Origin: Gemmatimonadota bacterium
GTDB taxonomy: Bacteria > Gemmatimonadota > Gemmatimonadetes > Longimicrobiales > Gaopeijiaceae
Length of the DNA: 64,000 bases
NCBI GenBank assembly: GCA_028873595.1
Contig: JAPPOV010000001.1
Location: 1 to 64,000 of the forward strand
Direction: 5' to 3'
This document shows positions 22,125-46,835 of the stretch, in pieces. Below the pieces are notes generated by a model. The model saw only the letters and a program-made list of their open reading frames with translations. It was not told the DNA's origin and did not search any database. Both the position numbers and the translations under genes were made by a program. The first letter of the stretch is position 1; each line of letters starts with the position of its first letter.

Positions 22125-23534
22125 ATGGACCTGTCTGGACTGAATGTGGCTGTCATCGGCCTCGGTGCGAGCGGAATCGCCGCCGCACGACTGGCCGCTG
22201 AAAAGGGAGGAGACGTCTATGTCTCGGATTCGCGCACGGATGATGCAGTTGCAGCTCGTGGAGCCGACCTCGGAGATGGAATCGAGGTCGAGTTGGGACG
22301 ACACGACCTCGAACGAATGGTCGATGCCGACCTCGTCGTCGCCAGCCCCGGTATCCCGCCGGACGCTCCTGTGCTCCGAAGGCTTGGGGACCGGGGAGTT
22401 CGATGGATCTCCGAACCCGAACTCGCCTCACGGTTCTTCGATGGTGCACTGATCGCCATCACCGGAACCAATGGTAAGACCACGACGACGTTACTGGTGA
22501 ACCATCTGCTTCACGCATCGGGGATTCGTTCCGCCGCGGGTGGGAACGTCGGGGGAGGGCTCGCCCCTGCCGCGTCCGATCTCGCGCGTCTGGACGATGC
22601 TCCGGACTGGATCGTGCTCGAGATGAGTTCGTTCCAGCTCGCGGGCGTGGACACGTTTCGGCCGGACATCGGTGTCGTGACGAACCTCTCGCCGGACCAC
22701 CTCGACCGATACGACACGGTCGACGCGTATTATGGCGACAAGGCCAGGCTCTTCGACAACGCTGATACGGAAAGCCTCTGGGTGCTGCCGTCATCTGACA
22801 ACGAAGTCCAGCGCCTCTGCGGTGACGCGCCGGGTCGCCGGTACTACTTCGGCGATGGCCCGGACAGCAGCGCGTTCCTGGCGGAAGACGAGCTTACGCT
22901 GCGTGTCGAGGGTGAGATCGAGCCGCTACTCCCGCGCGCCGATCTCCCTCTTCTCGGTGCACACAACGTGGAGAACGCGTTGGCCGCCGCTCTGGTGGCT
23001 CGCCTGGCGGGCGCCGGCACCGGTGGCCTGAGTGCCGGTCTCGGGTCTGCGCGTGCGCTTCCGCACCGATTGGAGCCGGTCGCCGATCATGAGGGAGTCG
23101 TCTGGATCAACGACTCCAAGGCTACCAACGTCGCTGCGACCAGAAGCGCGTTGACCAGTCTGAACCGTCCCGTCGTCCTCCTCCTCGGCGGGAAAGACAA
23201 AGGTGAAGACTTCGGTCAGCTTGCTGAGGCGGTGCGCGAATCTGCGCGTATGGTGATCGGGTATGGGGATGCCGGGCCACGTGCGATCGAGGAGTTGAGT
23301 GCGGCCCTGGGGGATGACGCCGGTACCCAGTCGGATGAAGCAGGCCCCGGTGGGCGCACTCCGGTGCTTCATCGGGTCGATGGCTCTATGGAGACCGTGG
23401 TCGCCCGCGCCCACGTCGGGGCTCGGGCAGGTGACGCGGTTCTCCTGTCACCCGCCTGCTCGAGCTTCGACATGTACGAGAGCTACGAGCACCGGGGCCG
23501 GCACTTCACGCGACTTGCGAGGGCTGTCGCATGA
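22125..23534 (+). CDS. murD: MurD, UDP-MurNAc-L-Ala:D-glutamate ligase
   Basis: MurD adds D-glutamate to UDP-MurNAc-L-alanine. The 469-residue protein has an N-terminal dinucleotide-like fold (VAVIGLGASGIAAARL), the ATP loop AITGTNGKTTTTLLVNH, SSFQLAGVDTF, LSPDHLDRY, NDSKATNVAAT and LLLGGKDKGEDF. ATG 22125 follows GGAGGT (22111-22116) at good spacing; the TTG three bases upstream is unlikely. The last four bases overlap ftsW (ATGA). Confidence 0.96.
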   Translation: MDLSGLNVAVIGLGASGIAAARLAAEKGGDVYVSDSRTDDAVAARGADLGDGIEVELGRHDLERMVDADLVVASPGIPPDAPVLRRLGDRGVRWISEPELASRFFDGALIAITGTNGKTTTTLLVNHLLHASGIRSAAGGNVGGGLAPAASDLARLDDAPDWIVLEMSSFQLAGVDTFRPDIGVVTNLSPDHLDRYDTVDAYYGDKARLFDNADTESLWVLPSSDNEVQRLCGDAPGRRYYFGDGPDSSAFLAEDELTLRVEGEIEPLLPRADLPLLGAHNVENALAAALVARLAGAGTGGLSAGLGSARALPHRLEPVADHEGVVWINDSKATNVAATRSALTSLNRPVVLLLGGKDKGEDFGQLAEAVRESARMVIGYGDAGPRAIEELSAALGDDAGTQSDEAGPGGRTPVLHRVDGSMETVVARAHVGARAGDAVLLSPACSSFDMYESYEHRGRHFTRLARAVA

Positions 23535-24709
23535 GGATGGCACGGCCCATGGATATCGCGCCGGCTGGCCCGGCTCGTCTGCCGGAGTCGGGGCTGGGGC
23601 GAGGATGGGAAGGCGCCGCCGTCATGGGCCTCACGCTCCTCGTTCTCTCCTTCGGCCTCGTGACGCTCTACAGTGCGTCGTCGGTCTTCGCGCTCAGCCA
23701 GGGCATGCCCGACACGTTCTACGTGGTGCGCCAGGGGGCGGGGGCAGTGGTGGGCCTGGCTCTACTCGGCTTCTGCGCCTGGATGCCGTACCGCTACTGG
23801 GCGCTGCTCGCCTGGCCGCTTGTCGCGGCCAGCGTGGTCATGTTGACCCTGTGCGTTCTTCCGTGGACGTACGGTATTGCTCCGGAAATCAACGGAGCTC
23901 GAAGGTGGCTGCGCGTCGGCGTCACGATCCAGCCATCCGAGATCGCCAAGGTGGCGATCATCGTATGGTCGTCTGCGATGGCCGTACGGAAGGCTCCTCA
24001 GTTCAAGTCGCTTCGGCGGGGATTGGGGCCGTTTCTCGCTGTGTGGGGTCTGGTGATCGGCCTCGTCACGATGGGCCCCGACCTGTCGACCGCTCTGGTG
24101 GTGGCCACACTCGGGTTCGTCATCGTCTTCTCGGCCGGGGCACGGATCGCCCACTTCGTCTTCCTGGGTGCCCTCGTCACGCCGGCACTGTTCATGCTGC
24201 TTCGGGCCCCGTATCGGTGGGAGCGCATCAAGGTGTTCGGTGGACAGCTGACTGACCCAGCGGGTGCCGGATATCAGGTAAAGCAGTCGCTGATCGGCAT
24301 CGGCTCCGGGGGGCTCTACGGAGTCGGTTTCGGAGAGGGGCAGCAGAAGCATGGTTTCCTACCCGAGGCACACAACGACTTCATCTTCGCGATGATCGGT
24401 GAAGAGTGGGGATTCTTCGGAATTCTTCTGGTCGTGGGAGTGTACTCGGCACTTGTTCTGATCGGTTTAAGTATTGCGAGACGGTCTAATTGCCTGTTAG
24501 GCGGGCTGGTCGAGCTCGGGTGAACGCGCCTCTTGGAAGGACAGGCGAGGCTCCACATGGCGGTGGGACTTGCGCTTGCCCCCGCGACCGGACTCGCGCT
24601 GCCGCTCATCTCCTACGGTCGTTCGAACCTGATCGTGACGCTGATCACGCTCGGGATCCTGATTTCGGTTGCGCGCGCGGCACCAGGTGGGAAGGCAGCC
24701 CGTGTCTGA
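23531..24709 (+). pseudogene. ftsW: FtsW lipid II polymerase interrupted by an in-frame TGA
   Basis: FtsW is the SEDS glycosyltransferase that polymerises septal glycan strands with FtsI. Codons 1-330 encode a normal N-terminal part (TLYSASS, GARRWLRVG, QPSEIAK, GPDLST, LPEAHNDFIFAMIGEEWG), including the conserved Asp of the PEAHxDF loop. Codon 331 (24521-24523) is TGA. The same frame then continues without a shift through MAVGLALAPATGLALPLISYGRSN to a second TGA at 24709, which overlaps murG by 8 bases as expected. Alignment by eye to known FtsW places TGA where Ile or Val is usual. Codons 24464-24502 just before it are unusually AT-rich. Either the sequence holds an error or the last helices are truly cut off. 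An internal ATG at 24557 could restart translation. Confidence 0.85.
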
Positions 24710-45387: not shown

Positions 45388-46835
45388 GCACGAAGCCCTC
45401 ACGCCGCGCGTACGTCGAAACGTACGGGTGCCAGATGAACATCAGCGACGGTGAGCTGATGGAAGGCATCCTCGAGCGCTCCGGTTACGACATCGTGGGC
45501 CGTCCAGAAGACGCCGACGTCGTGCTCGTGAATACGTGCGCCATTCGGGAGCATGCCGAAAAGCGTGTCCTTGGACGGGTGTCGCAGCTCAACGGGCTCA
45601 AGCGGGACCGCCCCGAGATGGTCATTGGTGTGACCGGATGTATGGCCCAGCGTATGGGCGGGACCCTGCTCGAAGAGGCTCCCTACGTGGACATCGTGAT
45701 GGGTCCCGACGGTTACCGGGGCCTTCCCGAGACCCTGGATCGTCTGGAATCCGGGAGGCGCGAAGGGTCAGCGCCACCCCCGCCAGAATCGGTGGGATTG
45801 GCCCGCGAAGGTGCAGGCGCGGGGGGAATCGAGGTCCTGAGGGGTGGCCGAAAACGCGGACCACAGCTCGCGGTGCTCCAACTCGACATGGACGAGAACT
45901 ATCAGGGACTCGAACAACGGCGCGCAGATGGTCCCAGCGCCTGGATCCCGATCCAGCGCGGGTGCGACCACAGGTGCACGTATTGTATCGTGCCCTATGT
46001 GCGCGGTGGAGAGAAGAACCGTTCCGCCGTCGAGGTGGTGAGTGAGGTTCGTGGGTTGGCCGAGCAGGGGGTCACGGAGATCACGTTGCTCGGGCAAACG
46101 GTGAATTCGTACGTGTGGGAGGACGTCCCCTTTCCGGAGCTTCTCAAACGGGTCGCCCGTGTCGACGGAATCCGCCGAGTCCGGTTCACGTCTCCCCACC
46201 CGCGGGACGTAAACGAAGCACTGGCCGAGGTCATGGCGACGGAAGCCGCTGTCTGCGAGCAGTTACATCTGCCTGCTCAGGCGGGCAACAACCGCACGTT
46301 GAAGCGGATGCTTCGTCGCTACACGGTCGAGACGCTGCTCGAGAAGGTGGATATGGTGCGGTCTGCTGTGCCTGACATCGCACTGTCAACCGATATCATC
46401 GTCGCGTTCCCGGGAGAGACAGACTCCGAGTTCCGGGATACGCTCGACCTCATGCGAACCGTTCGGTTCGACGACGCGTTCACCTACAAATACTCGCTCC
46501 GCGACGGAACACCGGCGACGAGGCTGCCTGAGGGTGACTTCATCGATCCGGATGAGGCGCAGGCACGTCTGGCTGAGCTGATCGAGGTTTCCAGGGCGAT
46601 CCAGAACGAAATCAACCGGGATGAGGTCGGCCGCATCGAGGAAGTCCTGATCGAGGGTGAAGGTCGTGATCCCGGGCAGGTCCGTGGTCGGACACGTCGC
46701 AACAAGGTCGTCGTCTTCGACGGCGAGGCAGCGCGGATGGGTGCGTACACACATGCGCGACTCGAGCGTACCACCGGTGCCACATTCGTGGGTTCGGAGG
46801 TCGAGGCGCCCGAGCGAGTGACGGCGTCGGCATGA
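45384..46835 (+). CDS. miaB: MiaB, tRNA i6A37 methylthiotransferase
   Basis: MiaB adds methylthio groups to i6A37 in tRNAs that read UNN codons. The 483-residue radical SAM protein begins AYVETYGCQMNISDGELM, has NTCAIREHAEKRV and VTGCMAQR, then CDHRCTYCIVPYVRGGEKNR, LPAQAGNNRTLKRM and a C-terminal TRAM domain. Placing mtaB and miaB side by side with an ATGA overlap makes a tRNA anticodon-loop module. It overlaps the LapA-like gene by 4 bases. Confidence 0.96.
   Translation: MSTKPSRRAYVETYGCQMNISDGELMEGILERSGYDIVGRPEDADVVLVNTCAIREHAEKRVLGRVSQLNGLKRDRPEMVIGVTGCMAQRMGGTLLEEAPYVDIVMGPDGYRGLPETLDRLESGRREGSAPPPPESVGLAREGAGAGGIEVLRGGRKRGPQLAVLQLDMDENYQGLEQRRADGPSAWIPIQRGCDHRCTYCIVPYVRGGEKNRSAVEVVSEVRGLAEQGVTEITLLGQTVNSYVWEDVPFPELLKRVARVDGIRRVRFTSPHPRDVNEALAEVMATEAAVCEQLHLPAQAGNNRTLKRMLRRYTVETLLEKVDMVRSAVPDIALSTDIIVAFPGETDSEFRDTLDLMRTVRFDDAFTYKYSLRDGTPATRLPEGDFIDPDEAQARLAELIEVSRAIQNEINRDEVGRIEEVLIEGEGRDPGQVRGRTRRNKVVVFDGEAARMGAYTHARLERTTGATFVGSEVEAPERVTASA

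Follow-up and report, generated by a model that had tools for sequence, protein, structure and literature searches.

The in-frame TGA that interrupts ftsW in this Gemmatimonadota bacterium, together with the odd codons that surround it, is very probably, judging from the sequence and its relatives, a local consensus error in the draft assembly. The living bacterium almost certainly carries an unbroken copy of the gene, which makes the interruption an artefact of the assembled genome and not new biology. The reads behind approximately 80 bases of ftsW (positions 24467 to 24550) were probably of poor quality, with calls that mixed up A with C, and G with T, at unchanged length, and one such miscall would have created the TGA. 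Draft genomes may thus hold short, frame-preserving miscalled patches that mimic a broken essential gene, and the spectrum of A↔C and G↔T exchanges against relatives offers a quick, read-free way to spot them.

The ftsW gene and its internal stop

The window, that is, the whole 64,000-nucleotide stretch of DNA that was analyzed, lies in contig 16 of a draft Gemmatimonadota genome of 52 contigs (3.2 Mb, 94.6% complete). The nearest relatives of this genome were metagenome-assembled Gemmatimonadota, and the draft genome itself is probably metagenome-assembled. The single-copy ftsW gene (23531 to 24709, forward strand), which encodes a SEDS peptidoglycan glycosyltransferase, was translated in a single frame from end to end, with the TGA at codon 331 (24521 to 24523) as its sole internal stop. 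The match to the Pfam family FTSW_RODA_SPOVE (PF01098; 281.7 bits) spanned the stop and was reported with “1 TGA” inside, so that translation and profile match together bore out the first-pass annotation, which had described a continuous FtsW frame broken at this codon.

Relative to the FtsW proteins of Gemmatimonadota (SEDS; TIGR02614/PF01098), the window's ftsW was alike in gene, frame, length, and placement in a cell wall/division cluster, with identities of up to 87%, whereas none of these relatives had its stop or its approximately 80 aberrant bases. Outside the patch, the rest of ftsW and its operon were intact. The distal frame was likewise confirmed to be unbroken. Its 8-base overlap with murG, described earlier, holds if murG starts at the GTG at 24702.

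The aberrant bases, which were substitutions only, were confined to approximately 80 bp (24467 to 24550, forward strand, codons 313 to 340) and clustered in an otherwise conserved gene, with length and frame unchanged. Local GC dropped to 0.525, and the A/T-rich odd codons were confirmed. The first-pass annotation had placed these codons at 24464 to 24502, next to the stop; the codons are indeed present and A/T rich, but the extent had been drawn too narrowly. They do not form a feature of their own but are part of a single patch that extends beyond the stop.

Residues and base exchanges in the patch

The closest FtsW (L033) was 87% identical over all 392 residues and aligned across the patch and the stop without a gap. 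The column of codon 331 contained Ile, Leu, Val, Cys, or Phe, and hence a sense codon, in all 77 aligned relatives, and no stop codon was found in the aligned part of FtsW in any of the 77. Nine residues had no counterpart in any relative, and eight of them fell within the 28 codons from 313 to 340, as did 13 of the 26 residues present in <5% of the relatives, and these aberrant residues flanked the TGA on both sides. In a permutation test of the clustering of never-seen residues, 0 of 20,000 permutations were as extreme as the ftsW patch, and no comparable cluster of odd residues was found in any relative given identical treatment. The earlier remark that Glu and Arg lie beside the stop where a membrane helix is expected was upheld, since Glu328, Arg333, Glu336, and Arg340 occurred at those columns in none of the 77 relatives and the surrounding stretch is largely hydrophobic and conserved. 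At the nucleotide level, the 60-base block from 24491 contained 23 differences from L033, 11 of them at codon positions 1 and 2, whereas differences in the remainder of ftsW were mostly at third positions.

Private substitutions were defined as positions at which the window departs from a base shared by four or more genus relatives, and approximately 18 kb was covered in this way. The patch contained 15 private substitutions per 90 bp (mean, 2.7), the densest cluster in these approximately 18 kb. A↔C or G↔T exchanges accounted for 11 of the 15 private bases in the patch versus 113 of 543 outside it (Fisher p = 2.7e-5), where transitions dominated; the next best 85-bp intervals contained 5 sites of this class when at least four relatives were required to agree and 7 when at least two were required. 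Exchanges of the A↔C/G↔T class alone restored 12 of the 15 odd patch codons to residues common in relatives and left 3 unexplained; transitions restored 2, and A↔T/C↔G exchanges 6. Outside the patch, the three classes restored relative-like residues about equally. The 80 bp contained 14 or more abnormal bases, with both senses of each exchange represented (C→A, G→T, A→C, and T→G).

Origin of the patch

In HiSeq sequencing, miscalls most often exchange A with C or G with T, a bias ascribed to shared lasers, and low-quality calls accumulate in particular regions (PMC3334598); miscalls of the A/C and G/T type in low-quality stretches of Illumina reads are also described in a further source (PMC4381044). 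The ftsW patch resembles these miscalls in exchange class and local clustering, whereas its cause is read from the consensus alone. We infer that base calling on an Illumina-type machine would be the source of the error and that the organism's own ftsW is intact. Counting against a consensus error, most assemblers drop k-mers that occur once, so that the miscalls could have entered the assembly only through several reads or a systematic error; the 3 odd codons that the A↔C/G↔T class alone leaves unexplained also count against it. Three explanations had been offered in the first-pass annotation, namely, an assembly or read error, a very recent mutation, and a two-piece FtsW. For the first, strong support comes from the clustering of aberrant residues, from the A↔C/G↔T signature, and from the lack of a comparable interruption in the compared coding sequence; the second is retained as a rival, and the third found no support.

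A genuine inactivating change, arising from a clustered mutation event such as error-prone repair or present in a subpopulation with a broken ftsW, is unlikely. The sequence by itself would be compatible with such a mutation, and oxidative damage likewise yields G→T and C→A changes; it would, however, have to account for changes in both directions within a single-copy gene whose remainder and operon are intact. Because at least 14 abnormal bases are clustered in a conserved, normally essential gene, a local consensus error is a far better explanation than a recent mutation.

It is very improbable that a foreign segment replaced the original one through recombination, chimeric assembly, or gap filling. 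The local drop in GC and the sharp right edge of the patch would fit such a replacement, but length and frame are exactly conserved across the patch, and no second copy of the segment was found in the whole of the organism's own genome. Exact matches to the patch did not exceed 16 bases in 1.1 Mb of that genome, and no match was found in phages, plasmids, or viral contigs (the last searched with an 18-base probe). Only chance-length repeats were found when repeats were considered as a template for the patch. A structured RNA was also rejected (fold z, +1.10; no Rfam match of note), and no promoter or terminator was found at the patch.

A real split gene, in which FtsW would be made in two pieces with a stop at 24521 and a restart at the ATG at 24557, is likewise very improbable. 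An ATG and an intact 50-residue frame (24557 to 24709, forward strand) do follow the TGA, with GAGG 6 bases upstream of the ATG, but this GAGG falls within the aberrant patch, and the ATG is an ordinary family Met found in the same column in 44 of the 77 relatives. The 50-residue product is the ordinary C-terminal end of FtsW and matches the ends of the FtsW profiles. Charged residues disrupt the hydrophobic segment both before and after the stop, and ftsW was split in none of the 77 relatives. A second FtsW was not found in the organism's own genome, in which the only other SEDS gene was a RodA-like gene on contig C23. It is very improbable that both the TGA and the altered segment are genuine and that FtsW is produced in this lineage as two chains or through read-through of the stop.

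Inverted repeats have been reported to promote miscalls (PMC3622629). Three relatives carry a strong hairpin inside ftsW at the site homologous to the patch's right half: L033 (1673-1727) and L037 (3979-4033), each with a fold z of about −3, and L039 at the corresponding stretch. This hairpin is probably a by-product of codon choice. As a source of local sequencing trouble it is only a suggestion, because most relatives lack it.

Selenocysteine and the rest of the genome

The TGA could also be read as selenocysteine replacing the Cys of near relatives, which would make FtsW a selenoprotein; this reading is scarcely credible. As in bacterial selenoprotein genes, ftsW has an in-frame TGA, its genome encodes the selenocysteine machinery (selA, selB, and tRNA-Sec), and its closest relatives carry Cys in the column of codon 331. 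Unlike such genes, ftsW has no SECIS after the TGA, and codon 331 is not a redox site, since most relatives carry Ile, Leu, Val, or Phe there. Published bacterial SECIS constraints (PMC13188914) were applied as a stem-loop 16 to 37 nt past the UGA with a G early in the loop, and no stem-loop after the ftsW TGA satisfied them. The scan was permissive, its loosest form being passed by chance at most ftsW codons, so that a pass would mean little, whereas failure counts. The fold downstream of the TGA equaled that of shuffled sequence (z, −0.01), and the aberrant residues lie upstream of the TGA as well.

As a positive control, the same test succeeded after the TGA of a formate dehydrogenase of the same genome. 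At this locus (L246; G000:C49:41952-43952, minus strand), the gene for the formate dehydrogenase alpha subunit contains an in-frame TGA and, 18 nt past it, the GGUCU loop of a textbook SECIS. Its product is probably a genuine selenoprotein of this Gemmatimonadota genome, as far as its sequence features indicate, and would account for the selenocysteine machinery.

An alignment of 162 kb of coding sequence with the relative G012 showed no interruption comparable to that in ftsW, which led us to reject a reassignment of TGA as a sense codon. Each in-frame stop examined closely belonged to an extension of a stop-to-stop frame, either upstream or non-coding; the other stops were judged solely by their nearness to an alignment edge. 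Those divergent stretches that were inspected proved to be ordinary variable regions. The ftsW patch therefore looks like an isolated event, neither a genome-wide property nor a changed genetic code. Elsewhere in the window, a variable segment with length changes (45750 to 45834) was observed inside a well-conserved protein, 85% identical to its counterpart in G012 and probably, from its sequence, a MiaB-type radical-SAM enzyme; with its length changes, this segment looks like a natural variable loop rather than another error patch.
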